Virus record (IMG/VR): IMGVR_UViG_3300031963_000271
Coordinates: 1 to 45,833 of that record
Source of the DNA: a virus
Direction: 5' to 3' (one strand)
DNA length: 45,833 nucleotides
Within the stretch, counting starts at the first letter, position 1; each line of letters starts with the position of its first letter. A model generated the notes under the pieces. The model searched no databases. It was not told the origin of the DNA and saw only the letters and a program-made list of their open reading frames with translations. Shown one piece after another: positions 5,657 through 34,000 of this stretch. The translations under genes were made by a program, and so were the position numbers.

Positions 5657-5685
5657 TTGACATACGTCACAAAACCCCCTATAAT
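5657..5685 (+). promoter_or_regulatory. Consensus sigma70 early promoter with operator in spacer
   Basis: TTGACA (5657-5662), 17-base spacer, TATAAT (5680-5685): both boxes fit consensus exactly. TACGTCAC (5663-5670) fills the first half of the spacer. It is the likely main early promoter for the genes from 5755 on. Confidence 0.85.
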
Positions 5686-6863: not shown

Positions 6864-7820
6864 ATGTCAATCGATACAACTCTCTCCGCCCCTTCGCACC
6901 TCACCTCTTTGCACTCATCCTGCTACGTGGTATCCGTCGAGGTGTCCACGTGGGTGGGCACAAAGCAAGACAAGACGGTCTCCAACGAGGTGACAACCCA
7001 GAAGAAGGCATCTGCCGATGCTGGCAAGTTCACCAAAATGCTGATGGCAGGTAACGCCACGCACAAAGCCCTGGTGAATCATCGTCAAACGGTCTACAAC
7101 TGGCTGCAGAGATGCACGTATGACTGGGCGGGTAAGTCTCGCCTGTTACCAATGATGCAACTGCCGAAGTTCCAGAAGGAGTACGAGCAGCACTTGGCGC
7201 AGTTCAACCTGCTCAAGGAGAAGTTCGCTGCCGAGTACAACGGCATCGTGGCGAACATGGCCTTCGAACAAGGCGACCTGTTTAACAGGGCAGACTACCC
7301 TGACCTGCAAACTATCCTGGCTAAGTTCAACATGAGGTTGCTGGTCACTGACGTGCCGCGTGGTGACTTCCGCAACGCGGTCAGCGAGGAGTTGGCGTCC
7401 GACCTGCATACACACTACCAGAAACAGACGGAGACAATCGTCAAGGCAGCAATGGACAAAGCTGCAACGCGGTTGGTCTCTCTGGCTGAGCGTGTGGCTC
7501 ACGCCTGCTCTGAGCCCGAGGAAACCGTGGCCGAGGACGGCACGGTCAAGAAGGGACGCAGGCCCAAGATCGTCGAGGCTACGTTCGATCAGGCGCGGGA
7601 AATGTGCGCCATCCTGCGGGACTTCAACCTGACAGGCAACGAGGAGATCGAGGAAGCCCGCGCAAAGCTGGAGTCTGCGCTGCGTGGCGTGACAACGGAC
7701 GACCTGCGCGAGTACGCAACAAAGCGCAAGGCAGTCAAGGACGAGATGGACGACCTGCTCACACAGTTCGGAGCATTCAAGCGCATCGGGCGCGACGAGG
7801 AGGACGACGGGGACGAGTGA
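6864..7820 (+). CDS. DUF3150-like protein, first gene of the MoxR/VWA cassette
   Basis: 318 residues, helical and charged, with little hydrophobic core outside the middle. The N-terminus has SSCYVVSVEVSTWVGTKQDKTVSNEVTTQKKASADAGKFTKMLM, then a long coiled-coil-like region (KFQKEYEQHLAQFNLLKEKFAAEYN), a domain ending in DLHTHYQKQTETIVKAAMDKAATRLVSLAERV, and an acidic C-terminal tail. I assign DUF3150 from this pattern and from its place next to a MoxR-type ATPase and a metallopeptidase/VWA gene, an arrangement known in other phages and some bacteria. The biochemical role is unknown; it may be the client or structural partner of the ATPase. Ribosome site AAAGGAA. A CCCCCTGAGAA promoter begins directly at its stop codon. 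Confidence 0.65.
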   Translation: MSIDTTLSAPSHLTSLHSSCYVVSVEVSTWVGTKQDKTVSNEVTTQKKASADAGKFTKMLMAGNATHKALVNHRQTVYNWLQRCTYDWAGKSRLLPMMQLPKFQKEYEQHLAQFNLLKEKFAAEYNGIVANMAFEQGDLFNRADYPDLQTILAKFNMRLLVTDVPRGDFRNAVSEELASDLHTHYQKQTETIVKAAMDKAATRLVSLAERVAHACSEPEETVAEDGTVKKGRRPKIVEATFDQAREMCAILRDFNLTGNEEIEEARAKLESALRGVTTDDLREYATKRKAVKDEMDDLLTQFGAFKRIGRDEEDDGDE

Positions 7821-7821
7821 T

Positions 7822-7862
7822 CCCCCTGAGAACTTGACAAAGTTAACGCGACATTTTTCTCT
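7822..7862 (+). promoter_or_regulatory. Third CCCCCTGAGAA box with consensus -35
   Basis: CCCCCTGAGAA at 7822-7832, one base, then TTGACA at 7834-7839. The -10 expected 17 bases on (TTCTCT, 7857-7862) is poor. It lies in the 77-base gap before the MoxR gene and lets that gene be expressed apart from 6864-7820. Confidence 0.5.
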
Positions 7863-7897
7863 CAATCAGTTCTTCATTCAGTAAGGAAGTCTTAATC

Positions 7898-8971
7898 ATG
7901 GCAAACATCAGTTTCACCACCACCGTCACCCTGGACCAAGCAGCCAACCTCATCGAGGTGACGGGAGACGAGGTGACGAACATCCTTGTGGCCGAGCCGG
8001 GTATCGGCAAGACCAGCATCCTCAAGATGCTCGAAGAGCGCATGGGTGATGGGTATGACTACATCTACGTGGACTGCCCCGTCAAGGACATGATGGACAT
8101 CGGTGCCAACATCCCGAACCACGAGACCCGCACCCTGGACTACTACGCAGCCAGCCTCTTCAAGCTGTCAGGACCGGGCGCAAACCGACCCAAGGTCATC
8201 CTGCTCGACGAGTTCTTGAAGGCTCCGAAGCTGATGCAGATCATCTTCACGCGGCTCATCCTTGAGCGCATGGTGGGTGATGTGCCGCTGCCCAAGGGGT
8301 CATATGTCTTCGCTACATCCAACAACGTGACGGACGGGGTGGGCGATGCACTCCTCGGTCACGTGGGCAATCGCGTGGCTGTCATCCACGTGCGAAAGCA
8401 CAAGGCAGACAAGTGGAATGCATGGGCCAGCAAGGTGGGTATCTCACGGGTCATCCGCACATGGGTTGCTCTGAATCCTCGGTGCATGGCGTCCTACCTC
8501 GACGGCAATCAAGAAGATAACCCGTATATCTTCAAGCCGGGTAAGCCCGGACAGTTCGTGTCTCCCCGGTCTCTGGCAAAGGCGAACGTGCCGATCTCCC
8601 GTAAGGATCGCTTGAGCGAAGACGAGTTGCAAGCGCAGCTCGCTGGCATCCTTGGCGAGGCTGCTGCCCGGTCGATGTCAGCGTTCGTGTCGATGAGCGA
8701 CAAGGTACGTGATGTCAAGGACGTGCTCGCTGATCCGAAGGGCATCGAAGTGCCAGAGGATATCGCTGCCCAAGTGATGATGATGTTCCAGGCTGTCGAT
8801 GTACTCGAAACGCAGGATGAACTGTCCGCGTTCATGGAGTTCGTCAACCGCATCAAGTCAGCCGAGGTGCAGGCTATCTTCTTCACGATGATGGCAAACC
8901 AACGCATGAAGCTGGCAAAGAACAACTCAGCCATCCGTGAGTGGATGCGTGTGAACTACGTGCTGGTGTAA
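7898..8971 (+). CDS. MoxR-type AAA+ ATPase
   Basis: AAA+ ATPase of 357 residues. Walker A VAEPGIGKTS at 31-40, Walker B KVILLDEF at 99-106 and sensor 1 YVFATSN at 136-142 are visible, followed by ALLGHVGNRV (151-160), matching the MoxR pattern in which a remodelled loop contacts the substrate. MoxR ATPases work with VWA-domain proteins to insert cofactors, activate enzymes or remodel complexes; the VWA partner is encoded at 9334. Only two genes of about 60 residues separate them. A helicase-loader role cannot be excluded, but the VWA partner argues against it. Good ribosome site TAAGGAAG. Confidence 0.88.
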   Translation: MANISFTTTVTLDQAANLIEVTGDEVTNILVAEPGIGKTSILKMLEERMGDGYDYIYVDCPVKDMMDIGANIPNHETRTLDYYAASLFKLSGPGANRPKVILLDEFLKAPKLMQIIFTRLILERMVGDVPLPKGSYVFATSNNVTDGVGDALLGHVGNRVAVIHVRKHKADKWNAWASKVGISRVIRTWVALNPRCMASYLDGNQEDNPYIFKPGKPGQFVSPRSLAKANVPISRKDRLSEDELQAQLAGILGEAAARSMSAFVSMSDKVRDVKDVLADPKGIEVPEDIAAQVMMMFQAVDVLETQDELSAFMEFVNRIKSAEVQAIFFTMMANQRMKLAKNNSAIREWMRVNYVLV

Positions 8972-8982
8972 GGAGAAAGCAA

Positions 8983-9165
8983 ATGAAGATCAAAGTCAAA
9001 GCCGTGAAGCAGTACGGAAGCTGGGTGTACTACCCAGTGTGTGGCAAGGCTGGGCTGTTTGCCCAGATCGCTGGCACCAAGACGCTCACCTCGCATGTCT
9101 TATCTCTCATCAGAGAGATGGGGGTAGAGGTGGAAGTGCAACAGGAAAACCCGGAGGGTGTATGA
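8983..9165 (+). CDS. Hypothetical protein, 60 aa
   Basis: Starts MKIKVKAVKQYGSWVYYPVCGKAGLFAQIAGTKTLT after AAGGAGA. The form (basic beta strands, then a helix LTSHVLSLIREMGVEVEV) resembles short phage proteins with a conserved YYPVC core that are common near replication genes. It ends in an ATGA overlap with the next gene. Function unknown. Confidence 0.65.
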   Translation: MKIKVKAVKQYGSWVYYPVCGKAGLFAQIAGTKTLTSHVLSLIREMGVEVEVQQENPEGV

Positions 9166-9341
9166 AAACCTATTACGTCCAACTGGTGAAGACCATCTAC
9201 GTCCTCATCAACGCTGAATCAGAAGAACAAGCTGCTGAGAAAGCAAAACAAGACAGCGAGGGGTTCGCCTACGACGGGCACTGGGCCCACGCAAAACCTA
9301 TGGTGTATGACGTATCAGAACAAGGAGTCTACGATGCTTGA
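9162..9341 (+). CDS. Hypothetical protein, 59 aa
   Basis: Starts in the ATGA overlap at 9162 and ends 8 bases into the next gene, so it is translationally coupled on both sides. MKTYYVQLVKTIYVLINAESEEQAAEKAKQ is the strand-helix pattern typical of small DpnD/PcfM-like phage and plasmid proteins (a beta strand, then an 'AESEEEAAEKA' helix). The function of that fold is unknown. Confidence 0.65.
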   Translation: MKTYYVQLVKTIYVLINAESEEQAAEKAKQDSEGFAYDGHWAHAKPMVYDVSEQGVYDA

Positions 9342-10566
9342 CCTCGAAATCAGAATCAAGAAGGCCCACGTGGCGCTCATGCGCCATCCCGAGACTGCGC
9401 TGTACTCGGGCGTGATGATGGCAGGTAGTAGTTCAGTCTCGGATGAGCCCATAACTGCGGCGACTAATGGACTGGACAAGTTCTACGGCAGAGCATTCAT
9501 GTCCAAACTCTCCGATCAGGAGATCAACGGCATCGTGCTGCACGAGAACCTGCACGTGGCGCTGCGCCATCTGGTCCACAACCGTGACCTCTTCAATGAA
9601 GATAGGCGCACGGCAAACATAGCAGCAGACTATGTGGTCAACGGGATCATCAACGGGCTGAAGGACACGAGACTGTGCAAGCTTCCGCAAGGGGCGCTGT
9701 ACGAGCCTCAGTACGACGGCATGTCGATGCGGGAAATCTATCGCCTCCTGAGGAAGAATAAGAAATCTCAACCGCAGCAGCCGGGACAGCCATGCCAGAA
9801 TGGACAGAATGGCGATCCATCTAATCAGCCCGGTCAGTCTCAATCCGGTAAGGATGATCCATCGGAATACGGTGGATTCGATGAGCACGACCTGAGCAGT
9901 GGCCCAGCCGACGCTGAGGAACTAAAGAAGGTGAGCGAGGCAGTGGACCGGGCGCTGCGTGAGGGTGCCCTGATTGCTGGTCGGTTCGGGGTTGATATCC
10001 CCCGCGCTATCGGTGAGTCGCTGGAACCGCAGGTTGACTGGCGGGCAGAGTTGATGGACTTTGTGGTCAATGCAACATCAGGCAAGGATGAGTACTCCTG
10101 GCGTCGCTACAACCGTCGAGTCATCGACACCATGCTCCTGCCTACCACCGTGAATGAAACGATAGGAGAGATTGTTGTTGCCATCGACACATCAGGTTCT
10201 ATCGGCGGCAGCGAACTCGGACTATTTGTCTCAGAACTGGTATCTATCTGTGAGATGGTAACTCCCGAGCGTGTCCGGGTTTTGTGGTGGGGCACGATGG
10301 TGGTCGGGGAGCAACTCTTCGAAGGCGACTATCAGAATCTCAAGACTCTACTCAAGCCCCGTGGAGGTGGTGGCACTCGCGTCGGGTCGGTGAGCGATCA
10401 CATCATCAAAAATAACATCTCAGCAGATGCTGTGATTGTATTTACAGACGGCTACGTCGAGGCACAAATCGATTGGAGGATATCGATTCCCTCCTTGTGG
10501 CTTGTGACTCAGTACGATAGGATGAGCGTCCCCGTGGGCGGTAAGCTTGTCAAGTTCAACAAGTAA
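9334..10566 (+). CDS. HExxH metallopeptidase-like plus VWA domain protein
   Basis: 410 residues with two parts. The N-terminal domain has HENLH at residues 70-74, an HExxH zinc site, followed by the helix RRTANIAADYVVNGIINGL, as in the DUF2201-type putative metallopeptidase domain. After a Gln/Gly/Asn/Pro linker (about 144-175), the C-terminal domain is VWA-like: VVAIDTSGSIGGSE (281-293) contains the DxSxS metal-binding site and DAVIVFTDGYVE a later acidic strand. In MoxR systems the VWA protein is the partner of the ATPase, here at 7898. Start ATG 9334 follows AAGGAG at 9322. Whether the peptidase site is active is unknown. Confidence 0.85.
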   Translation: MLDLEIRIKKAHVALMRHPETALYSGVMMAGSSSVSDEPITAATNGLDKFYGRAFMSKLSDQEINGIVLHENLHVALRHLVHNRDLFNEDRRTANIAADYVVNGIINGLKDTRLCKLPQGALYEPQYDGMSMREIYRLLRKNKKSQPQQPGQPCQNGQNGDPSNQPGQSQSGKDDPSEYGGFDEHDLSSGPADAEELKKVSEAVDRALREGALIAGRFGVDIPRAIGESLEPQVDWRAELMDFVVNATSGKDEYSWRRYNRRVIDTMLLPTTVNETIGEIVVAIDTSGSIGGSELGLFVSELVSICEMVTPERVRVLWWGTMVVGEQLFEGDYQNLKTLLKPRGGGGTRVGSVSDHIIKNNISADAVIVFTDGYVEAQIDWRISIPSLWLVTQYDRMSVPVGGKLVKFNK

Positions 10567-10593: not shown

Positions 10594-11538
10594 ATGCGAG
10601 TATCTGACCTTCGTCCTTACATCTATAACCCAACAGACGCACTCGTCGAGAAGTTTGAGTTGCGGATGAGTTCGTACCCTAACGCTCTGACGGTACTTGC
10701 CGCAGAGTTCTGTACTGCTACAGGGTTCCTCATCGATCCTACCCCTCGCAGGGGTAGGTTGGCAGTAGATTTGGTGTTGCCCAGCGGCATCGAGGCTGGC
10801 TATCTCACCGTTCAGTTAGATGGGGGTGACCACATCTACGGGTACACGCACCACGTTGTCAACAAGACACGCGGCGACAAGTACTCCAGCGACAAGAGCA
10901 CTCGGTCTTCTAAGAAGATTCACAGCCTGCTTGCTGCATTGCGTAAGTGCAACGAGATATACAGCCAATCCAGGGCAGAGAGTTTTCTCTTCCAAGACTT
11001 CCAGACCTCGTACAAGTACGCGATACCTGACACGAGGGAGATTACATTCAGGGTGCCTTCACAAGCAGCATTGGCGGCGGCGCAGTTCGCCCTCAAGCGG
11101 ACTGATTACCTCCCACATGAGGTGATAGTTACGCTAAACGCAGCGATGAGTGACTACGACGCTGAAGTCGCACAAGACAAGGACAAGAATGCAATCAAGG
11201 CTCGCTTCGACGCGGGCGTGTATGTCCTGGCGGTGTCTCCTCTATCTACCGTAGAGCATCCCATCTACTACTTCTGGGAGACAGAGAAAGAGCCCATCCA
11301 CAATGTAATGAAGGCCCCGAGAAACCTCAAGCGTTACGCCACGATAGAAGACATCGAGCCTATCCATCTCGATATGGTCTTTGCCAAGACAGAGTTTGAG
11401 AAAGTCACCAACTACAACGTGCGGGACCCGTATCACATCCCTCGCTCAGACAAGTACTACCCTGAACTTGACATGAGCACGTGCTACATCAGCAGTTTCA
11501 TGTACGTAGTCATCCCCAAGAAAAAGGAGGGGGCATGA
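10594..11538 (+). CDS. Hypothetical protein, 314 aa
   Basis: Unrecognised. AAAGGAAG precedes the ATG. Residues about 60-110 contain LAVDLVLPSGIEAGYLTVQLDGGDHIYGYTHH and a basic Ser-rich stretch (KYSSDKSTRSSKKIHSL). The second half is mostly beta-rich with a run of Tyr. No transmembrane segment or metal motif is clear. It follows the VWA gene after 27 bases and overlaps the next gene by ATGA, so it may belong to the MoxR cassette as an added subunit, but this rests only on position. Confidence 0.7.
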   Translation: MRVSDLRPYIYNPTDALVEKFELRMSSYPNALTVLAAEFCTATGFLIDPTPRRGRLAVDLVLPSGIEAGYLTVQLDGGDHIYGYTHHVVNKTRGDKYSSDKSTRSSKKIHSLLAALRKCNEIYSQSRAESFLFQDFQTSYKYAIPDTREITFRVPSQAALAAAQFALKRTDYLPHEVIVTLNAAMSDYDAEVAQDKDKNAIKARFDAGVYVLAVSPLSTVEHPIYYFWETEKEPIHNVMKAPRNLKRYATIEDIEPIHLDMVFAKTEFEKVTNYNVRDPYHIPRSDKYYPELDMSTCYISSFMYVVIPKKKEGA

Positions 11539-11942
11539 TCGGTGGGAGCAATCGCTTCTTCGCAGGTTACCCTCCCATGCCGTACAAGCATGGGCGGAAA
11601 GATGATCTCTACCGTTGTGTCCTGTGTCAGTCAGGAGATATGTACAAACTGTACACAACGCGAGAGCGGGTGTTGCACTACACCGATGAGACCCTGCCTG
11701 ATCCCATAAAGATTGCGTTGGGTTTCATCAAGGCTATCCCGGCGCGTAACACGAACCCTTGGGCGCAAGCGGGGGACCTGTACATGAACAACCACAGCCC
11801 CAAGCTAGACGGTATAGGTTGGCTAGGGAAAGTGGACCTCGTTCATTTCGAACCACCCAACGTATACCAACCCATCAAGGAGTATTACTACGTGATCATC
11901 CTGCCTCGTGACGTACTCAGTGAAATCTCTAATGGACTGTAG
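11535..11942 (+). CDS. Hypothetical protein, 135 aa
   Basis: Start ATG lies in the ATGA overlap with the previous gene, with AAAGGAGG just upstream. One CxxC (RCVLCQSGD, near residue 28) and a Tyr/Pro-rich body are visible. The C-terminus is a hydrophobic strand (EYYYVIILPRDVLSEISNGL). No family recognised; the coupling suggests it works with the 314-aa product. Confidence 0.65.
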   Translation: MIGGSNRFFAGYPPMPYKHGRKDDLYRCVLCQSGDMYKLYTTRERVLHYTDETLPDPIKIALGFIKAIPARNTNPWAQAGDLYMNNHSPKLDGIGWLGKVDLVHFEPPNVYQPIKEYYYVIILPRDVLSEISNGL

Positions 11943-11950
11943 GGGTACGC

Positions 11951-12247
11951 ATGTCTAAAACTCCGGAAGCAAAAGTCAAAGCGCAAGTTGACAAAGTTCT
12001 GAAGGATCTTGGCGCGTACTCATGCAAGCCCATGACGGGCGGGTATGGGGCGTCAGGGGTGCCTGACATCCTCGCGTGTGTACGCGGAAGGTTTGTGGGC
12101 ATCGAGTGCAAAGCAAAGGGTAACAAGACCACTGCCTTGCAGGATTACAACCTCGCGCAAATCAAACGCGCTGGGGGCATCGCCCTTGTGGTCGATGAGT
12201 TCAACGTACATCAACTCAGTTTATTGATTCAGGAGAACATGAAGTGA
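11951..12247 (+). CDS. VRR-NUC domain nuclease
   Basis: 98 residues, the full size of a stand-alone VRR-NUC domain, a PD-(D/E)XK-type fold. The active-site pattern is visible: GGYGASGVPDILAC (GxPD, about residues 30-40) and FVGIECKAKG (ExK, about 50-58), then a Gln/Asn helix ALQDYNLAQIKRAGG. Such phage proteins are structure-specific endonucleases acting on branched or flapped DNA during replication and recombination. It ends in a GTGA overlap with the next short gene. Confidence 0.92.
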   Translation: MSKTPEAKVKAQVDKVLKDLGAYSCKPMTGGYGASGVPDILACVRGRFVGIECKAKGNKTTALQDYNLAQIKRAGGIALVVDEFNVHQLSLLIQENMK

Positions 12248-13944: not shown

Positions 13945-14162
13945 CTGACGATCAGTTCCGCGAACTCTGCAATACCTTTGGCTTCGCCCCCAGCAGGGCA
14001 CTGCGGGAGATGCTGGATAAGGCGATGGAGCAGGAGCGTGAAAGCTGCGCGAAGGTGTGTGACTTTGAAGTGGCGCGGCTGCACGCGATTGATGAGCCGC
14101 GTCCTGCGCTGGCCGTTGGCATCTGCGCCGCCGCCATCCGCGCAAGGAAGGATAAGCAATGA
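13941..14162 (+). CDS. Small conserved phage protein, 73 aa (family with 15956)
   Basis: Carries the pattern QERESCAKVCD...CAAAIRAR, common in short phage proteins of unknown function; the paired Cys may bind metal. A second copy of the family lies at 15956-16213, and 29 bases around the RESCAKVC codons are identical between them (14034-14062 and 16088-16116), pointing to recent duplication or recombination. Starts with ATGACTGAC in an ATGA overlap. Confidence 0.7.
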   Translation: MTDDQFRELCNTFGFAPSRALREMLDKAMEQERESCAKVCDFEVARLHAIDEPRPALAVGICAAAIRARKDKQ

Positions 14163-14254
14163 CCCGCATCCATTACTGGTGCCCGGTGTCTCGGGCGTAT
14201 GTTACGGCCATCGTGCCGACCGAGGTTGCTTTCAAAATGATGGGGTGGGTATGA
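14159..14254 (+). CDS. Candidate micro-ORF, 31 aa
   Basis: Fills the 88-base gap between two ATGA-coupled neighbours and itself starts and ends in ATGA overlaps. The product is MTRIHYWCPVSRAYVTAIVP plus 11 residues. Only its perfect place in the chain argues that it is translated; it might serve mainly to carry ribosomes to the next start. Confidence 0.45.
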   Translation: MTRIHYWCPVSRAYVTAIVPTEVAFKMMGWV

Positions 14255-14568
14255 CTGACCGCGAACTCCTTGAACTCGCTGCGAAGGCGGCGGGGATTGA
14301 GCTATGGCACGAAGATGTGTTCACCAACGGCTTGACGCACAAGGTGAGCGACAACGGAGTGTTGTGCTGGAACCCTCTCACCGACGACGGCGATGCGCTG
14401 CGGCTGGCGGTGAAGTTGCTGTTTGAAATTGACATGGATCGCAGGAGCATTGCCATTAGGCACCAAACTGGCGTCAAGATTCTTCGGGCTTTCAACAACG
14501 ACCCCTACGCAGCCACCCGCCGCGCCATCGTCAGGGCTGCGGCTGAGATTGGAAGGAGCATGAAATGA
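14251..14568 (+). CDS. Small phage protein, 105 aa, duplicated cassette A1
   Basis: MTDRELLELAAKAAG, WNPLTDDGDALRLAVKL and AIVRAAAEIGRSM are the conserved blocks of a small phage family of unknown function. The gene at 14915 is a paralogue: 54 bases are identical (14365-14418 and 15044-15097). ATGA-coupled at both ends, with GGAAGGAG before the next start. Unit A of a two-gene tandem duplication. Confidence 0.75.
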   Translation: MTDRELLELAAKAAGIELWHEDVFTNGLTHKVSDNGVLCWNPLTDDGDALRLAVKLLFEIDMDRRSIAIRHQTGVKILRAFNNDPYAATRRAIVRAAAEIGRSMK

Positions 14569-14918
14569 CCATCACCATCGACCGAGCCGTGGCCCAGCAG
14601 GCGCTGGAGGCGTTGGAGGGTTTAAGCGAACCCTACTATGTCTTGAAAGCCCAAGACGCCCTCCGCGCCGCGCTGGAGCAGCCGGAGCAGGAGCCGGTGG
14701 CGTCCATCTACGTGACGATAGGTGGAGATCGAGAGTTTGACGACTGGCGCTGCCCGCTGCCTGTAGGAGGAAATCTTCTCTACACCCACCCACCCCGCCG
14801 CGAGTGGCGAGGGCTGACGGAGGAGGAGCATGAGAAAGCCAGACACGTCTGTCGGCATGTCGGCGTTGAAGGGCTTGTGTTATGGCTTGAAGATAAGCTG
14901 AAGGAGCGAAACGCATGA
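14565..14918 (+). CDS. Small phage protein, 117 aa, duplicated cassette B1
   Basis: Pattern QQALEALEGL...DALRAALEQPEQEPVA...LLYTHPPRREWRGLTEEE. This modular type is widespread in phages: a helical N-terminus, then EPVA, a variable segment and a 'LYT.PP' turn. The paralogue at 15229 shares these blocks. Function unknown. ATGA-coupled on both sides. Confidence 0.75.
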   Translation: MTITIDRAVAQQALEALEGLSEPYYVLKAQDALRAALEQPEQEPVASIYVTIGGDREFDDWRCPLPVGGNLLYTHPPRREWRGLTEEEHEKARHVCRHVGVEGLVLWLEDKLKERNA

Positions 14919-15232
14919 CTGACCGCGAACTGCTTGAGGCCGCTGCGAAGGCGGCGGGGCTGAAGATTCACGCCGCTCGACAGGCTGAACGCGACGAGGA
15001 AGGGTGCGCCAATTCCGGCCTTTGGATCGTCAACGGCTCAACCTGCTGGAACCCTCTCACCGACGACGGCGATGCGCTGCGGCTGGCGGTGAAGTTGGAG
15101 GCGTGTATTGACTTTATGGATCGCAGAGTGGTTGCGGGGGCATGGCCTGAAGTTGTCATTGACTTCACAGACGAAGACTATCGCCGCGCCATCGTCAGGG
15201 CAGCATCAGAGATTGGAAGGAGCATGGCATGA
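14915..15232 (+). CDS. Small phage protein, 105 aa, duplicated cassette A2
   Basis: Paralogue of 14251-14568, of identical length, with the same N-terminal MTDRELLEAAAKAAG, central WNPLTDDGDALRLAVKL and C-terminal RRAIVRAASEIGRSM. The segment between (residues 17-45) differs and has extra Cys. The 54-bp identity with its copy indicates a recent origin or gene conversion. Confidence 0.75.
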   Translation: MTDRELLEAAAKAAGLKIHAARQAERDEEGCANSGLWIVNGSTCWNPLTDDGDALRLAVKLEACIDFMDRRVVAGAWPEVVIDFTDEDYRRAIVRAASEIGRSMA

Positions 15233-15621
15233 CTGACCTACGAACCGCCGCCCAGCAGGCGCTGGAGGTACTTGTTCGCGCCAGCAGTTACTACGACACA
15301 TACGCAGAGATTGCCGCTCTTGAGGCCGCGCTGGCAGAGCCGGTGCAGGAGCCGGTGGCGTGGCGATGGAGGATGCGAAACCTTACAGACGCGCCGGGTT
15401 TTGTCCAGCCGTGGAAGGTAACAACCTACTACCCACGGGAGCAGGCAAACGAGATCGAGCCCCTCTACACCGCCCCACCCCAGCGCAAGCCGCCAGCAAC
15501 CATTGACGAGATGTTCGACCGCATGGACAAGGCCCCCAAAGGGGTGTTCTTTGGGCATGACCCGATGACGATCTGGATGGAGGCTTGGCGGGCTGCGGAG
15601 CAGCAGCATGGGATCACATGA
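15229..15621 (+). CDS. Small phage protein, 130 aa, duplicated cassette B2
   Basis: Paralogue of 14565-14918: AAQQALEVL, AALEAALAEPVQEPVAW, EPLYTAPPQRKPP. The C-terminal third (MFDRMDKAPKGVFFGHDPMTIWMEAWRAAEQ) is different from the first copy, so the family has a constant front and an exchangeable end. ATGA-coupled. Confidence 0.75.
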   Translation: MTDLRTAAQQALEVLVRASSYYDTYAEIAALEAALAEPVQEPVAWRWRMRNLTDAPGFVQPWKVTTYYPREQANEIEPLYTAPPQRKPPATIDEMFDRMDKAPKGVFFGHDPMTIWMEAWRAAEQQHGIT

Positions 15622-26524: not shown

Positions 26525-26711
26525 CGAGCCGCTGTGGATTTTCCCGTTTGAAGTGATGGAGGTGGGGGAGAGTTTCTTCGTCCCCACCATGAAACCCGCG
26601 TTCTTAACTTACTCGGTAGAAAACGGAGCCAAGCGCGCCCGTGTCAAAGTCAAGGTCTACACCACGACAAAAGACGGAGTGCTTGGCATCCGAGTTTGGC
26701 GTACAGGTTAG
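26484..26711 (+). CDS. Hypothetical protein, 75 aa
   Basis: Starts inside the primase gene (41-base overlap) behind GGAAG. It begins MAAEKTPPPPSPLDEPLWIFPFEVMEVGESFFVPTMKPAF, with a C-terminal basic beta hairpin (RARVKVKVYTTTKDGVLGIRVWRTG). This 'FPF..M.VG.SFFVP' pattern is widespread in small phage proteins near replication genes; function unknown. The stop overlaps the stop of the convergent 2,430-aa gene. Confidence 0.75.
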   Translation: MAAEKTPPPPSPLDEPLWIFPFEVMEVGESFFVPTMKPAFLTYSVENGAKRARVKVKVYTTTKDGVLGIRVWRTG

Positions 26712-29700
26712 GGTGTCAACTCACTGATCTGTTCAAACGCGGTGAGAAGGTTGCGCTTGACCAAGTTCTGAATGGGCTTCAAGTTATCAAGCATCTCACC
26801 ACGTTCTTTCGGGGTGTACTCCCGATTGATACGGATGTCGTTCATCATCTTGCGGATGTCACGCAACTGTCCGTTGACCTGCGAGTTGTAGTAGTCAACA
26901 AGGTACTTGTGAGTCGGGTTGTCTTGTAAATACTCAGAGTACCCCACAGGGTTGTTGCTCTTGAGCGTGTTCAGCCGACGCTCAATATCCTTGATCTTGT
27001 TCTCAACATTAGAGAACTGCCGCGCATCAAAGTTTGACGGAGACCCGAAGAAACTCTCGAAAACAATCGAGTCTCTCTTTGGATCAAACTCCTTGAACCC
27101 GGTGGCCGACATAGCCAGTCCGGAGACGCCGGAGATACCACGCATGATGCCGTCAGCGTAGTTGTTGGCAAAGAAGTACATGGTGTTCGGGCTCCAGTCG
27201 ATGCCGCCGTTTGTGGCATCAAAAAGGAATCGAGCCGCCTGCTTGTACATCTCAGGGATGTTGTCCCCGCCCGTGTAGGCATCCCCGGCACGAGACTGCC
27301 GGTTGTTGTAAATCTCTCGGCCCAAACCGTCCTTGTTCATCACGAACTCAAGGAACGGACGGAACGCTGACGGTGTGGCCGTATCCATCAAGAACGCCGC
27401 AGGCTCATCGATTGGGCTGATGCGCGAGAACGGCAGGGGTAGGAAGGAGTCGAGCCCGATGCTGATGATGTTAGACAGCGCTTCCTTTGGCGTAGTGTGT
27501 CCACCAATAGTAGAAGCAAGCTGTGCCCCTGTAGCAGCAAAAGAACCGAGTCCGAAACCCCACGGGATTTGAATCGCGTTATCCATTCCGGGAAGGAAGA
27601 AACGCGCATTGCGTGTCCATCGTGCGGGGTCATCAGTCGCAACCTTATTGCGTTCCTGATCATCGTCGTCAGACAGCATCAGTGCCATCACGTAGACAGC
27701 CATCCCCATGCCAAGCAGGCTGGCAGACATCGCACGTGCATCGGAACTCTTCTTGTAAGCGTCCGCGATTGCCTTGTTGATCTCATCTGCTGATGCCTTC
27801 ATCGCCCCACCACGGGCTTTCATCAGATCAGCGGTTACCTTCTTCTGTGCATTCGTGTAGTTGGTGAAAGCAGGCAACACAGCATCCAGCGCACGAACCG
27901 CGCCCGTAGCAGCGGGGCGGAAGAACATGAAGGCTGCGCCCATCGCCTTGCCCCACTCACCGACTTGCTCAAAGTTAGCGAGGTTCTTGGTGTACTCAGC
28001 AGCGCGGTTGGAGGCGTAGTCTTCCAGTTCAGCACCGGAGAGGTTCTTGCCCTTACCCTCTTGCAGCATGTTCTTCTTCAGGACACGATACGAGGCAGTG
28101 CGGCTTGCCAACTCAAACATATCGGTCCAGTAGTCGAATACCTTCTCGACCTGATCCTTGGTCTTCAGGACGTTGTTGCGCCCCACGTCTTTCAGCAGTT
28201 CCTGCATCTGCCCCTTGGCAGCGATACCCTGGATGTACGAGACACGCCCGCCTTTCTCCAGATACTCCAGCATGTCGGCTACGTAGGGGTCTTTCGCCGC
28301 CATAGCCTTGGCTTCGCCTACCCTGTTGTTCGCCATCAGGTAAGCAATCTTTGCAGACTTGAACAGGCCCCCGTTTGTAGCAACTTGGCGCGAAACCTCC
28401 GCGATCAGTTGGTACGAAGCCTTCGGACCAAGTTCAGCTCCTAGCGTGTAGGCGTTGGTAAGCAAGTCACGCACAAAGTTCATCGGGGCAAACGGCAGGC
28501 TGTAGCGGGTGTGGAGCTGCCCGATACCGCTGGTAATGGCATTTGCTTTTTCCAGCAACGGGTTTGCCTCACGGTACGTGCGGCGCACAGCCTCTGCTTC
28601 CAGATTACTCTGAAGCTTGACCACCCGGATGTCACCATTCGGCTCGTAGTGCAAGATGACCTTCTCACCCTGCGCTGCCTTCAAAGCATCTGGGTTGTTG
28701 GCCCGCTCTTCAAACTTGATGACCGTCTTTGCATCACCCTTGAGGATGCCGTCGTTCACAGCATTCTTGATGGAGAGCGTCAGGTCTTTGCGCCCCAACC
28801 GCATCGCAGCGCGGGCACCGTCAGCAAGAGACTGCAACACGGGGTTGTCAGAGTCAGACTCCCGGCCACCGAAAGCGAGTTCTTTTTCTTGCAGTTCGCC
28901 ACCAATCTTGCGGGACTTCAGAGGATCGAGGTCTTCATCGGCTTCTAGCGCACCGGGGCGACCCTTCAGAGGGACGTAGTGTTTCCAGCCATTGAAAGCG
29001 ACGATGTTGGAGACGCCTTGAGACCAGTAGTTAGCCTCTTTGTTCAGCTCAATAGTTTCTTTCTGGACTTCCTTGAGCTTGTCAAAGACATCCTTCAGCA
29101 TGTCCTGATTGAACTCGGAGGTCGTGCCCGTGTAGAACTTGCGCATCTCAGCAAGCTCTTTGGTCGTGTAGTTACCAGCTACGTTGTACTTCTCAGACTT
29201 CTCATCAAACAGCTTCGCCGCCATCTCCGGAGTGACGGGCTTGGCCTTGCCAGCAGGTCCAACAAACTTGGCGTGGTTGTTGGGGTCGTTGACGATTTTG
29301 TCCAGCATCTGACGGTACTTGACCGCATCTGCTTCTTTGGTTGTCGGATGAGCAAGACTCTCCAGAATCTTCTTACGCGCTGCGTCTGCTGCTGGTTCCA
29401 GCGGAACTGTCTTGATGTACTTGACTTTGCGGCGCTCCGGCTCGTGCATGACGATGGAGTAGCCATGCAGAACTTGCAGGGCCTCATCAACTGTCAGCTT
29501 GTGTACGGTGGCAAAGTTCTCGATTGCCTTGTGGACATCATTGGTCTTGCCAGCAAGCCTGTTGACGAAGTTCCACCATGCGCGGCCTGTAGCCAACGTG
29601 GCTTGTGACCAGACGTTGTTGATCTTGTCGCCCGTGTAGATGATCTTGCCGAAGGCATCGTACTTTTCCTGGGCGCGTTTCAACGGTTCCTGAGCGTTCT

Positions 29701-32700
29701 GGAACTTCCGCACCACGTTCTGCCAGAAGCCTTGGCTCTTGAGCGCCTGCACAATCGTCGGACGCTCAGCTTTACCAGCAAGGGGCAGTGCCTTCTGAAT
29801 TTCTTCGGGGGTTCTATCGAGCTTCGGGGGTGCCTTCTTGGTGACACCGGCTTTGCCCCTTGAAGGCAATTCCGTTCCGGCGTCTCTCTGCTGATAGGCG
29901 CTACTCCTAAGAGACGTCAACTGTGCCTCAATGTCAGCTAATTTTTGCTTAAGCTCAGGCAAATCTCTCCCGAGCCATTGTGCTTGTTCCTCCAGCACTG
30001 CGCGTTTATCGGGATACTTTTCAGCTTTTTCTTTTTCTTTTTGAACTTTTGATTCGGTTTCAGCTATTTTTGCGTTTACGTTGTCGTAGTCTTGCAGCAA
30101 CACCATAGCCAGCCCAGTCTCAGACTCACTCCCAAGCATTTGCACCCAAGAAGTGTCTTCCCACGCAGCGGATTTAGAAAGAAGTTCTGTCCCAATACTT
30201 CCCTTACCAGCAATCCGCTCGATGCCGCCTTCAGGTGCGGCAAGGATGTCTTGGAACGCCGACGAGATTTCCAGCAGCAGATTGCCCTTGTACCCAGGCT
30301 CAATGAGGATGCTGCGACGGAGGTTGGTGATCCCCAGTTGCGTGACAAGTTCGCCTTTGACAGGGGCTATCTTTGCTTCAGCGGCATCCTCGGGGGTTAT
30401 CCCTTCGCCCTCTTGTGCAAATAGCTTCTCCGGCTGCAGCGCTTCTACATCAGCCGCGCTCAGCTTTCGTTCTTCCCTGCGCTCCGCTGGGGTAAGAGTG
30501 CCTTCCTCAAGTTCAATTTCAGCAAGGCGCTCTTCCGCCGCCGTCAGATCCTTTTTCTTCTGGGCGGCAAGTTTTCCTTTTAGCTCTTCTTCACGCAAAC
30601 GCTGCGCGGTCTTCGTGGTGACACGAGACTTCTCAGTGGGCAGATAAACCTTTTGAGTACTCGCAGAGGGCGTAAACAGACGGTACAGATACGCCAGAGT
30701 GCCTGTGAAGTAATCCCACAGGTTATCGAACATGGAGTCGTACAGATCACCGACTTCCCGTGCAGTCTGAAGTACACGTGGGGCTTGCCCCGTCTTGGCC
30801 GTGGCCTTAGCCAGCCGAGGGATGCTGATGTTGGCGAGTTCTTGTTGGAACGGCCCATCCGTCATTGCATACGCGATGAACTCGTAGAGGTTCTCAAAAG
30901 CGTTGGGGTACTTGCTTCCAATCTTGTTCTTTGCGGCACCAGCAATCTCGATGAGGTGCTCTACAGCTTTGATCGACCGAGCATCGAGCTTCGTCTTGTC
31001 AGAGAAATACTGATTGATGATCTTGACTGTGGCTGCGTGCGTCAGTTCGTGCAGCAGCGTAGCTTCATCAAGACCGTTCGGCCCCAGGTAGATCGTGTTG
31101 GTTGCAGCGTCGTACTTGCCAATCTCATCGAACACCATGTTTTCGTCGAACACGATGTTGACGTTGAAGTTGTCAATACGCTGGAGTGCATTGGCAAGCG
31201 CTTCGTAGACCTGACGAGAGAACCAATTTCCTTCTTTAGTGCGAGAGAGGATGCCTTTCGCCCCGCCTTCTTTTTGGCTGGGCTTGTATCTGCCAAACGG
31301 TTCTCCTTTCGATACCTCGCCAGGAGCACCACCAAGATACCTAAGCACCGCTTTGACATCACCCGCCAGCAGCTTGCTGAGAATTTCATCAGGGAGGATC
31401 GCTCCCTTACCGGCAGGCTGAGCTTTCCTAGCGCGTTCAGCGGCGCGAACTATCTCGTTCTTGACCTGGGACTCAGCAGATTGCAGGGCTTCGCGCCGCT
31501 GCTGCTCTGCCTTCTCCGTTTGAATCTGCTTGCGGATAGCGCGAAACGCTAGGTCCTGCTCGTTTGCAGAGTCTGTCTTGTTGATGGTCGTGAAGAGGTT
31601 CCTCGACGCTTCAGAGAGCGAACCCCAGGTCGGGAAGGAATACGCAAGGCCCGTCTTCTGGCCCATGACCGGGCGCTGCCGCTCGTATCTGTACCGCGCA
31701 GAGACTTCTTCCTTGGCCTTAGCGCGAGCTTCTTTTCTCGCTTCTTCCGTTTTCGCCTTTACCTCTTCAGCCTGCTTCTCTTCAGGCGTCAGGCCAGCAG
31801 TGACTCCGCGCACTGCCTGACGGCCTTCAGCCTCGGCCTGCACGTTCTTGGATTGCAAGTACTCTGACAGCGCTTGAGCAGCCTCGTCGTGCTCAAACTG
31901 AGAGTTATCTCTTATGTGCTCCGTGAAGTAGACACGCTTTTCTTCAGGACGCAGCTTGTCGAACTCAGGCAGGTTCTCCTGATCTGATTCAGTCGTCTGA
32001 TTGAAAGCCTGCCGAGTCTCCTCGTACAGCAGCTTCTGTTCTTCAGGGATGACAACCTGTCGCTCAGGCTTGATCTCCTGCGCAGCAATCAGCGACGGTT
32101 CAACGTCAGCAGCCCGCGTAGCCAGCCCACCAACTTCAGGGGCAGCAATCTCAGACTCCAGGGTCATCGCGGGCTTGACCCGCGCCCAGTATTGACGCGC
32201 AGTCTCGCCGTCTTTGCGCACAACGCCAAGGCGTTTGCCTTCGGCTTCTAGTTCTCTCTCACGCTCTTTCTGAGCAGGGGTAAGTTCAGCAGCGCCTCTC
32301 GTGAAGAAGTCTTCATCTTCACCGAACGCCGCATCAAACTTACCGATCTTCTCCTTAAGACCGGGTGCTCCACCCACCACCGGAGGCGGTGCCCCTTCCA
32401 CTTTTAACGGAGGGCTCGGTGGGGGTGGAGCAGGCGGTGCAGCAGCAGAGGGTGTCGAGGGCGTTACTGCACTTGGCTTACCCAACTCAATGAGCTTGGG
32501 CTCATCCAAGAAACCTATAGCAGCAGTGAGCTCTAGGTCCTCATATTCATCCGCCTCTTTGGGGGTGAGTTCGCGCTGCGCCTTTATCGTGAAGAGTTCG
32601 TTGTACCGGTCTTGCTCTTCTTGTCTTTTACTTACTGGAGGGGGCTTTGCTCCTTCTCCTCCAGCAGGTTGTCCAGCATCCTCGACAGGAGGAACCACTC

Positions 32701-34000
32701 CACCTGGGACAGTGGTTCCAGCCCCTTCGGCGGCGGGTTTTGCACCGGGCTCGCCAGCCACTTGAACGCCTGCTCCACTTGGCGGGGTGATAGCTTCTCC
32801 AGCATCTTTGGCTCCAGTCAGCGATTTCAGTAAGTCTTCCACGCTCATGTCGGGAGACACAGAGCGTGTTGCGGGGGCAGGGGCTGGGGCACCTGCAGGT
32901 GCCGGGGGAGCGGGTGGGGCTTCTTCCTCTTCTTCCTGAACTGTTGTGCCAGCGGGGGGAGGAGGCGTAGTTATACCTGGGAATTGCTTCGGCGCTTCTT
33001 TGCGCCCAGTGGCTACGTCCGTAGTCCCAGTGATAACCCCTCCACCGATACCGCCCTTCAGGAAGGCATCCACTACGCGGTTGAAGTTCTTCTCGCTGAA
33101 GAACTGCTGATTCTCATCAACAAACTTCTCGGCGGCGGCAGATGAAGTTTCCTGGGCGGCTTCAGTCCCACCTTCAATCAGGAAGCCCTTGCCAGCACCC
33201 TTGGCGAAGCGCTTGTACCACGCCCCCATGATCTGCTCTTCAGGAATACCCGCCTTACGTACTTTAGCAAGTAAAGTAACAGGCATAACAGCATCCAGCG
33301 CTGCATTGAACCCACCGAACGCAAGGGCTGCACCGAGGTCTTCTTTGCCTGTTGCTTCCTTAATATTCTGGTAGACCTCAGGGATGTTCTGCGCTGCAGA
33401 CCCCGCAAACGCACCCGCCGCCTGATACTTCAGGGCTTCGCGCTGAGCAGCCTTGACCCCCGCCGCAGTAGCGGCGTCGATTGCCGCCTTAGTGGGCGGT
33501 CCCATCTTTGCGGCTTCAGCCAGTAGAACCCGCTCAGCAGCTTCTTTGGCGGCGATGGTCGCACCGCGCCCAGCGACACCCGCAAGTCCACCCGTAAGGA
33601 TGGCAGGTAGAAGGGAAGCAATGCTTTCCCCGACGGCTTCCTTGGCGTAAGTCCAGGCGTCACCGAGACTCTTAACGTCTGTGTACGAAGGAACCGCAGC
33701 GGGCATCTCCCGCTGAATCTTTTGCTGAGTAGCGGCGGCTTCTTTCCACTGCTTCTCCGCGTATTCGCCAGCGCCTACGGCACGTGCCGCCATTGCCGGG
33801 AGGACATCTCCTAGCAGAACCCCAGTCTGGTAGAACCCGCGCTTGACAGCAGGGACGAACCCGCCCTCCGGGGGAGGGGGAGGCGCAGAAACCGAACCTG
33901 ACAGCCCTCGTATGTAATCAGCTAATTGCTTAGCTGACTGCGTATCCCCCGCTGCATCGGCTTTTTCGAGGGCTCTGTACAGACTTTGCAGGTCAGCCAT
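26708..34000 (-). CDS. Giant virion-associated polyvalent protein, 2,430 aa, metallopeptidase motif
   Basis: The largest gene. The N-terminus (residues 1-30, ADLQSLYRALEKADAAGDTQSAKQLADYI) is a helical hairpin typical of ejected virion proteins. A Gly/Ala membrane-like region (about 95-240) follows, then a Pro/Ala linker to about 560 and charged coiled coils. A metallopeptidase-like site LLHELTHAAT lies near residue 983 (HExxH). The C-terminal part around 1950-2040 (RTASYRVLKKNMLQ, NRAAEYTKNLANFEQVGEWGKAMGAAFMFFRPAATGAV) resembles the LPD38 large polyvalent domain. It likely travels in the virion and is injected with DNA, opening the envelope or acting in the cell. Confidence 0.85.
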   Translation of the reverse strand: MADLQSLYRALEKADAAGDTQSAKQLADYIRGLSGSVSAPPPPPEGGFVPAVKRGFYQTGVLLGDVLPAMAARAVGAGEYAEKQWKEAAATQQKIQREMPAAVPSYTDVKSLGDAWTYAKEAVGESIASLLPAILTGGLAGVAGRGATIAAKEAAERVLLAEAAKMGPPTKAAIDAATAAGVKAAQREALKYQAAGAFAGSAAQNIPEVYQNIKEATGKEDLGAALAFGGFNAALDAVMPVTLLAKVRKAGIPEEQIMGAWYKRFAKGAGKGFLIEGGTEAAQETSSAAAEKFVDENQQFFSEKNFNRVVDAFLKGGIGGGVITGTTDVATGRKEAPKQFPGITTPPPPAGTTVQEEEEEAPPAPPAPAGAPAPAPATRSVSPDMSVEDLLKSLTGAKDAGEAITPPSGAGVQVAGEPGAKPAAEGAGTTVPGGVVPPVEDAGQPAGGEGAKPPPVSKRQEEQDRYNELFTIKAQRELTPKEADEYEDLELTAAIGFLDEPKLIELGKPSAVTPSTPSAAAPPAPPPPSPPLKVEGAPPPVVGGAPGLKEKIGKFDAAFGEDEDFFTRGAAELTPAQKERERELEAEGKRLGVVRKDGETARQYWARVKPAMTLESEIAAPEVGGLATRAADVEPSLIAAQEIKPERQVVIPEEQKLLYEETRQAFNQTTESDQENLPEFDKLRPEEKRVYFTEHIRDNSQFEHDEAAQALSEYLQSKNVQAEAEGRQAVRGVTAGLTPEEKQAEEVKAKTEEARKEARAKAKEEVSARYRYERQRPVMGQKTGLAYSFPTWGSLSEASRNLFTTINKTDSANEQDLAFRAIRKQIQTEKAEQQRREALQSAESQVKNEIVRAAERARKAQPAGKGAILPDEILSKLLAGDVKAVLRYLGGAPGEVSKGEPFGRYKPSQKEGGAKGILSRTKEGNWFSRQVYEALANALQRIDNFNVNIVFDENMVFDEIGKYDAATNTIYLGPNGLDEATLLHELTHAATVKIINQYFSDKTKLDARSIKAVEHLIEIAGAAKNKIGSKYPNAFENLYEFIAYAMTDGPFQQELANISIPRLAKATAKTGQAPRVLQTAREVGDLYDSMFDNLWDYFTGTLAYLYRLFTPSASTQKVYLPTEKSRVTTKTAQRLREEELKGKLAAQKKKDLTAAEERLAEIELEEGTLTPAERREERKLSAADVEALQPEKLFAQEGEGITPEDAAEAKIAPVKGELVTQLGITNLRRSILIEPGYKGNLLLEISSAFQDILAAPEGGIERIAGKGSIGTELLSKSAAWEDTSWVQMLGSESETGLAMVLLQDYDNVNAKIAETESKVQKEKEKAEKYPDKRAVLEEQAQWLGRDLPELKQKLADIEAQLTSLRSSAYQQRDAGTELPSRGKAGVTKKAPPKLDRTPEEIQKALPLAGKAERPTIVQALKSQGFWQNVVRKFQNAQEPLKRAQEKYDAFGKIIYTGDKINNVWSQATLATGRAWWNFVNRLAGKTNDVHKAIENFATVHKLTVDEALQVLHGYSIVMHEPERRKVKYIKTVPLEPAADAARKKILESLAHPTTKEADAVKYRQMLDKIVNDPNNHAKFVGPAGKAKPVTPEMAAKLFDEKSEKYNVAGNYTTKELAEMRKFYTGTTSEFNQDMLKDVFDKLKEVQKETIELNKEANYWSQGVSNIVAFNGWKHYVPLKGRPGALEADEDLDPLKSRKIGGELQEKELAFGGRESDSDNPVLQSLADGARAAMRLGRKDLTLSIKNAVNDGILKGDAKTVIKFEERANNPDALKAAQGEKVILHYEPNGDIRVVKLQSNLEAEAVRRTYREANPLLEKANAITSGIGQLHTRYSLPFAPMNFVRDLLTNAYTLGAELGPKASYQLIAEVSRQVATNGGLFKSAKIAYLMANNRVGEAKAMAAKDPYVADMLEYLEKGGRVSYIQGIAAKGQMQELLKDVGRNNVLKTKDQVEKVFDYWTDMFELASRTASYRVLKKNMLQEGKGKNLSGAELEDYASNRAAEYTKNLANFEQVGEWGKAMGAAFMFFRPAATGAVRALDAVLPAFTNYTNAQKKVTADLMKARGGAMKASADEINKAIADAYKKSSDARAMSASLLGMGMAVYVMALMLSDDDDQERNKVATDDPARWTRNARFFLPGMDNAIQIPWGFGLGSFAATGAQLASTIGGHTTPKEALSNIISIGLDSFLPLPFSRISPIDEPAAFLMDTATPSAFRPFLEFVMNKDGLGREIYNNRQSRAGDAYTGGDNIPEMYKQAARFLFDATNGGIDWSPNTMYFFANNYADGIMRGISGVSGLAMSATGFKEFDPKRDSIVFESFFGSPSNFDARQFSNVENKIKDIERRLNTLKSNNPVGYSEYLQDNPTHKYLVDYYNSQVNGQLRDIRKMMNDIRINREYTPKERGEMLDNLKPIQNLVKRNLLTAFEQISELTP

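Follow-up and report, generated by a model that had tools for sequence, protein, structure and literature searches.

NorQ/NorD, CbbQ/CbbO and RavA/ViaA each combine a MoxR-type ATPase with a VWA partner and serve housekeeping targets, and to our knowledge none of them includes a DUF3150 protein. The same kind of pair is encoded in the viral DNA studied here, IMG/VR record IMGVR_UViG_3300031963_000271 (positions 1-45,833; the window is this whole stretch of 45,833 nucleotides (nt)). There, at 6864-10566, genes for a DUF3150-like protein, a MoxR-type AAA+ ATPase and a DUF2201 protein with a putative metallopeptidase domain and a VWA domain stand together, and we refer to them as the trio. The three housekeeping systems point to the probable mode of work of the ATPase and its partner, and the VWA protein of the window has the layout of NorD, with an N-terminal domain, a flexible linker and a VWA domain. 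In the published NorQ/NorD structures, a VWA finger occupies the pore of the ATPase, the C-terminus of VWA lies on the ATPase as well, and rotation extends the linker that leads to the N-terminal domain (PMC13036017).

For jumbo phages, Iyer et al. 2021 describe a group, 2.2, in which a MoxR ATPase adjoins a vWA protein whose N-terminal domain is a metallopeptidase, as in the window, and place it with virion assembly (PMC7824862). In contrast, the window trio lies in a replication-side operon and is common to plasmids, and it includes DUF3150, which is not named in their account of this group. The N4 proteins gp24 and gp25, an ATPase and a vWFA-domain protein like the window pair, are listed in a study of N4-like phages among 14 core genes, as middle-transcribed and of unknown function (PMC4193335). 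ATPase and VWA homologues are present in Schitoviridae, and, unlike the window, the Schitoviridae loci examined hold no gene annotated DUF3150. A 2009 paper on plasmid pCAR1 names MoxR and VWA in the operon ORF100-109, suggests that this operon takes part in transfer, and states that ORF100-103 are conserved in R478, Rts1, SXT and R391 (PMC2642839). This locus shares with the window the operon of AAA ATPase, DUF3150 and VWA genes and an N-terminal HExxH in the VWA protein; it differs by a NorD-like VWA protein of 604 amino acids (aa) in place of DUF2201 and by a canonical PF11348 DUF3150, only distantly similar to that of the window. MoxR-vWA ternary conflict systems consist, like the trio, of an ATPase, a vWA protein and a third component, which in the published description is VMAP, iSTAND, FtsH or a beta-propeller (PMC7159879), whereas the window system has DUF3150. 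None of these four families was found by Pfam in the DUF3150 members, a comparison which did not include a dedicated VMAP profile search.

In the open literature searched, no paper was found that mentions DUF3150, and none that mentions DUF2201 together with MoxR. Already in print, in the sources cited, are the MoxR/HExxH-VWA pair (N4 gp24/gp25, jumbo phages) and the plasmid MoxR/VWA pair (2009). The new part is a DUF3150 trio common to phages and plasmids, together with evidence against a virion-only role.

Results

A preliminary description of this DNA had proposed a three-gene cassette, and all three open frames are present on the plus strand with their motifs intact: 6864-7820 for the DUF3150-like protein (318 aa), 7898-8971 for the ATPase (357 aa) and 9307-10566 for the DUF2201 protein (419 aa). 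The window is tailed-phage sequence, with terminase, portal and virion genes, and no nucleotide-level similarity to phage records was found. The trio stands at the head of a rightward operon running to nuclease, DNA polymerase and helicase genes, with terminase and portal on the opposite strand.

A scan of viral contigs with the ATPase retained the best 80 of 86 relatives, which together with the window make 81 sequences. The 80 contigs represent one related phage group, and shared descent explains part of the conservation of gene order. The order DUF3150-MoxR-VWA within 5 kb occurs in 75 of the 81, and the other six are all cut by contig ends. Counted from the ATPase, a VWA partner gene is near in 76/80 contigs, and the remaining four end just after the ATPase gene. 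Absence of the proteins' co-occurrence from other phages had been named beforehand as a finding that would speak against the cassette; the trio does recur in these phages and is also present in Synechococcus phage MinM2. By tblastn on phage records, the VWA protein gave 448 matches, the ATPase 348 and DUF3150 three, the last in records of equal length that probably stand close to a single phage. A 7.6 kb contig of an actinobacterial metagenome-assembled genome also carries the trio and is probably a phage fragment binned with its host.

In the clade, portal, TerL and a probable small-terminase gene occupy the minus strand, and the plus strand carries the trio, two fast-evolving genes, a nuclease, PolA, PDDEXK and SNF2. 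Wherever these genes were seen, TerL (51/51 loci), portal (47/47) and the probable small-terminase gene (51/51) lie on the strand opposite to the trio, and PolA lies on the plus strand (43/43). A Dda-like helicase and a DNA polymerase follow the VWA gene in phages D502 and BWKH3.

Co-variation was analysed with protein distances in 21 non-redundant contigs out of 32 that hold all seven genes. The partial correlation given TerL was 0.76 for DUF3150-MoxR, 0.82 for DUF3150-VWA and 0.79 for MoxR-VWA; the controls gave 0.43 (VWA-o153), 0.22 (VWA-VRR), 0.35 (o153-VRR, two touching genes) and 0.58 (DUF3150-o153). The difference between DUF3150-VWA and VWA-o153 is 0.39, with a jackknife standard error of 0.14. 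In these 21 contigs, a small number, co-variation is stronger inside the trio than between its genes and neighbours at equal distance, and linkage alone does not readily account for this. Median identity is 0.51-0.58 for the trio proteins versus 0.22-0.30 for the next two genes.

The same three proteins are encoded as an operon on Burkholderiales and Rhodovastum plasmids. DUF3150 of MinM2 and the Cupriavidus copy, used as queries, each gave 42 plasmid records. With the Cupriavidus query, the VWA gene is the next gene, at most 100 nt from DUF3150, in 40 of the 42; the exceptions are Burkholderia NZ_CP015038, in which the DUF3150 match is split and apart from the VWA gene, and Manganitrophus CP114559, whose VWA protein is not among the best 60 of 119 matches. 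All three genes, with a VWA protein of the DUF2201 type, are present in the five plasmid loci examined, in agreement with phage-built profile hidden Markov models, and on a Simplicispira plasmid other genes lie between ATPase and DUF3150. The plasmid loci and MinM2 have the genes in the order ATPase-DUF3150-VWA, which is not that of the window; the trio has thus changed its order but stayed together. About 78 plasmid records (119 versus 41) contain the VWA protein and lack a DUF3150 match. The ATPase-VWA pair can occur without DUF3150, and DUF3150 rarely occurs without the VWA gene. On pRK1-1, a DNA repair exonuclease gene and an AAA gene lie near the trio.

A more distant version is found on pCAR1, where AAA (AAA_5, CbbQ_C), DUF3150 (PF11348, 8.3e-92) and NorD-like VWA genes form one operon, with ssb-recT-exo about 10-18 kb downstream. 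Its VWA protein, annotated NorD, has an N-terminal HECSH at residues 57-61. The IncC plasmid pEc78 carries, in this order, AAA, one gene, ssb, bet, exo, DUF3150 and VWA, and the VWA protein has an N-terminal HEAAH at residues 61-65. In both of these NorD-like proteins NxLED follows 20-odd residues past HExxH, an arrangement that resembles HENLH...NIAAD of the window. These motifs raise the possibility that a zincin-like N-terminal domain is common to VWA partners of the NorD and DUF2201 types. The window ATPase is linked to those of pCAR1 and IncC by 20.9 and 7.0 bits, and common descent of all three proteins in both forms is plausible, not proven, at the level of sequence. With DUF3150 of pCAR1 as query, 1118 plasmid records were obtained, 969 of them typed conjugative, and one record of the phage collection.

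The DUF3150-like protein had been described as preceding the ATPase, and this stands: the gene is present, 11 of 36 aligned relatives match PF11348 weakly (best 1.1e-4), and the best phage match, from MinM2, is annotated DUF3150. For the window protein itself, no Pfam match was found at E<=0.01; the Cupriavidus copy reaches 22.1 bits, against a PF11348 cut-off of 24.9. By these scores we call the product of 6864-7820 DUF3150-like rather than a confirmed PF11348 member. In its model, strands precede long helices (97-139, 169-214); the mean predicted local distance difference test score (pLDDT) is 84.5 and the predicted template modelling score 0.53. A fold search of the model against the PDB gave no match at E<=0.001, and no convincing solved relative was found by sequence. 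Against a viral structure library there were eight matches at E<=0.001, one named DUF3150 and the others unnamed or uncharacterised. VIA-align matches of the model (Z up to 7.9) were set aside as being at the usual level for helical bundles.

The MoxR-type ATPase shows a P-loop (AEPGIGKT), Walker B (ILLDEF), sensor 1 (TSNN) and Arg finger (NR), and matches phrog_1297 'ATPase' at 3.7e-46. GK[ST], a DE or DD Walker B, the sensor Asn and the Arg finger are all found in 19/19 aligned ATPases, an alignment that left out Axy11, Pollock (split gene), ZC03 and three clade members; P34, G35, G37, K38, D104, E105, N142 and R159 are invariant in the clade alignment. Pfam gave AAA, AAA_22 and nSTAND3 for the window protein, all weak, and AAA_5 and AAA_3 for six and two of 39 family members. 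Midasins are the nearest solved proteins by profile. In four Burkholderiales plasmid ATPases, Walker B is DD rather than DE. In Escherichia phage Pollock, the gp24-like ATPase is annotated in pieces that are separated by a gene for an HNH homing endonuclease (locus L108, 1082-2870).

The third protein consists of an N-terminal putative metallopeptidase domain, a low-complexity linker and a C-terminal VWA domain. It matches the curated families PF13203 (DUF2201_N, 77.7 bits, cut-off 23.2) and PF09967 (DUF2201 VWA, 53.5 bits, cut-off 26.4) as well as phrog_1314. Its start is likely 9334 rather than 9307, because 9334 is in frame, has AAGGAG upstream and agrees with the starts of relatives; residues are counted here from 9307. 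The zinc metallopeptidase motif HENLH reported earlier (residues 79-83, 9541-9555) is no chance match: HEN[L/F]H is kept in 37/37 aligned relatives. The motif lies within a helix in the structure model. Further on, N104, D108 and N112 of NIAADYVVN (residues 104-112, 9616-9642) are invariant in the 37 relatives, and this is the probable region of the third metal ligand. The DEHD motif (D192, H194, D195) is equally invariant. The Gln/Gly/Pro-rich linker (residues 156-198, 9772-9900) is disordered in the model, with pLDDT mostly <50 and a mean column conservation of 0.36. The block ahead of the VWA domain (residues 259-285, 10081-10161) is conserved best of all (mean 0.78), although the isolated model leaves most of it unstructured, and is a candidate element for contact with the ATPase. 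The metal ion-dependent adhesion site (MIDAS) DTSGS (residues 294-298, 10186-10200) follows, and DxSxS is present in 37/37 relatives. In a wider set of 25 VWA proteins (four of this clade, 16 from other phage records, five from plasmids), hand-picked from 448 phage and 42 plasmid matches, DxSxS is found in all 25 and HExxH in 24. The model matches VWA domain folds at Z about 11-12, matches which concern the VWA part and not the zincin part, and NorQD 9qhe appears at rank 50 in a fold search. By sequence, no convincing solved relative was found. The label 'HNH endonuclease' of phrog_1314 was rejected, as Pfam and the motifs give a metallopeptidase-VWA protein. This name has been copied to many phage records, and the members seen here are DUF2201 metallopeptidase-VWA proteins. 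A scan with NCBIfam models gave matches below cut-off only.

The preliminary description had also proposed an internal promoter between DUF3150 and the other cassette genes. This finds no support: no sigma-70-like site lies in 7821-7897 of the window, and sites with at least 10/12 consensus bases occur in the DUF3150-MoxR gap of 0/76 loci, the gap being at most 50 nt in 42 of them. Upstream of the rightward genes, a sigma-70-like promoter is predicted at 5657-5685 (plus strand) as a consensus match (12/12 bases, 17 nt spacer). Sites of 12/12 bases lie 977-1440 nt ahead of DUF3150 in three close relatives and 110-133 nt ahead of it in seven loci of the set. At least 10/12 bases are reached upstream of DUF3150 in 38/76 loci; mononucleotide-shuffled upstream sequence of the first 40 loci gives 0.43 sites per region, so that real sites are only modestly in excess.

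Two small open reading frames lie on the plus strand between the ATPase and VWA genes. That at 8983-9165 (60 aa) has AAGGAG upstream, and profile matches to its upstream-extended version were found in 25/80 loci; that at 9162-9341 (59 aa), with GGAGG upstream, is limited to the closest relatives. Behind the trio, also on the plus strand, follow a fast-evolving protein of 314 aa (10594-11538; 59/80 loci, median identity 0.22), for which a Pfam domain scan matched 0/44 members, a small protein of conserved position (11481-11942; 62/80 loci) and an endonuclease of phrog_93 (11951-12247; 60/80 loci), which we take to be of the VRR-NUC type. At 13978-15621 a two-gene unit is tandemly duplicated, with 13978-14568 resembling 14915-15232 (53-61% identity) and 14565-14918 resembling 15229-15621 (30%). 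The minus strand encodes at 26708-34000 a protein of 2430 aa, without PHROG match and with Pfam LPD38 (large polyvalent protein) at residues 2127-2294 (2.1e-18).

Discussion

Our data show a trio that is encoded together, kept together and co-varying. We favour, with about an even chance of being right, an ATP-driven three-part remodeller or protease of mobile elements that acts on a DNA-processing complex and not on the virion. By analogy to the NorQ/NorD structures, the ATPase hexamer would grip and rotate the VWA protein, whose MIDAS would hold the target while ATP hydrolysis pulls on it. Along the linker, strain would reach the zincin domain at the N-terminus, and this domain would cut or handle the exposed target, with DUF3150 as the adaptor that fits the machine to it. 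The target would be a complex of nucleoprotein or DNA-processing type that arises or is encountered during replication, recombination or establishment of element DNA; we infer this class because replication genes, ssb-bet-exo, ssb-recT-exo, a repair exonuclease and helicase/polymerase genes are neighbours in several element types.

A role in virion assembly or maturation, with the ATPase-VWA pair as chaperone and the metallopeptidase domain processing structural proteins, has been proposed for jumbo-phage group 2.2 (PMC7824862), and the study of N4-like phages places virion proteins near gp24/gp25 homologues (PMC4193335). In the latter, however, the gp24/gp25 transcripts are middle and not late. 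A virion-only role looks unlikely because the trio is found on plasmids, which make no virions, and because it keeps to the replication side, opposite to the packaging genes; we judge the virion explanation improbable. Carriage by plasmids suggests that the machine is of use to mobile DNA generally and not to the building of virus particles. Of the roles listed in the preliminary description, remodelling of a complex fits best, whereas maturation of virion proteins is weakened by these observations. Sharing by phages and conjugative plasmids would also suit counter-defence, in which the machine would take apart or cut an immune complex of the host directed at phages and incoming plasmids; so would the early place of the trio in the rightward operon and its absence from related phages with the same backbone. 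Against this, none of the PADLOC models matches a window protein, with one weak IetA match in a plasmid ATPase, and the trio is fairly conserved compared with the next two genes, unlike a typical arms-race gene, which leaves counter-defence unlikely, though worth keeping in mind.

The likeness to NorQ/NorD and CobS/CobT raises a further explanation, insertion of a metal or cofactor into an enzyme of the element or the host, with HExxH handling metal instead of performing proteolysis. NorQD is described as driving iron insertion (PMC13036017), and the pCAR1 ATPase has a CbbQ/NorQ C-terminal domain next to a VWA protein annotated NorD. Yet the neighbour families traced in 80 loci include no constant metalloenzyme gene, and their pattern is one of DNA-processing genes; we give metal insertion little credit. 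That the genes are neutral hitch-hikers or a chance cluster finds some footing in the common ancestry of the 80 contigs, which alone keeps some order, but it is already contradicted and can practically be dismissed: the trio is kept in plasmids and MinM2 despite a different gene order, the motifs are invariant, and co-variation exceeds the linkage controls.

Several observations weigh against the remodeller or protease that we favour. The neighbourhood basis for its target is only suggestive, and on Burkholderia cenocepacia and Paraburkholderia plasmids the trio adjoins PRTRC or type IV secretion system genes; in cyanophage S-TIM66 the pair adjoins Hsp20 and virion genes, which also favours a virion role. 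Judged by TerL, 023Pt_psg01, DSL-LC04, HTVC027P and HTVC023P are the closest named phages, followed by MinM2. DSL-LC04 and HTVC027P (searched whole) and 023Pt_psg01 (49.9 of 59.8 kb) gave no trio-profile match at E<=1, with TerL, portal and PolA matches present; that packaging backbone can therefore do without the cassette. HLAMH replaces HExxH in Pseudomonas phage 98PfluR60PP, the sole exception of the 25 proteins. The DUF3150 link between the window and pCAR1 and IncC is weak (21.5 and 11.5 bits; hhalign probability 4.7%), and the VWA protein of these plasmids is unmatched by the DUF2201-type profile. In SXT, bet and exo are reported as s065 and s066 (PMC2786100), and if gene order is a guide, DUF3150 and VWA would be s067 and s068. 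Deletion of bet, exo, s067, s068 and s070, which may thus include both, is reported to reduce transfer at most 10-fold (PMC2791158).

A broader and rather doubtful extension would see DUF3150, the MoxR ATPase and the VWA protein with N-terminal HExxH as one hitherto undescribed three-subunit machine of tailed phages, conjugative plasmids and integrative and conjugative elements, which unloads or cleaves recombination or replication nucleoprotein complexes (SSB, annealing protein, exonuclease or polymerase assemblies). Mobile elements would thus have their own counterpart of midasin or ClpX, and the role of N4 gp24/gp25 would probably be explained.

The MoxR/VWA-metallopeptidase pair is core yet unexplained in N4-like phages, and a MoxR/DUF3150/VWA operon resides on well-studied conjugative plasmids. 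Linked through DUF3150, the phage pair and the plasmid operon speak less for virion assembly than for a service rendered to mobile DNA at large, and the question becomes testable in ordinary laboratory systems, namely pCAR1 or phage N4 in E. coli K-12. Should it cleave proteins, the machine would represent a new composition among ATP-powered proteases or remodellers.

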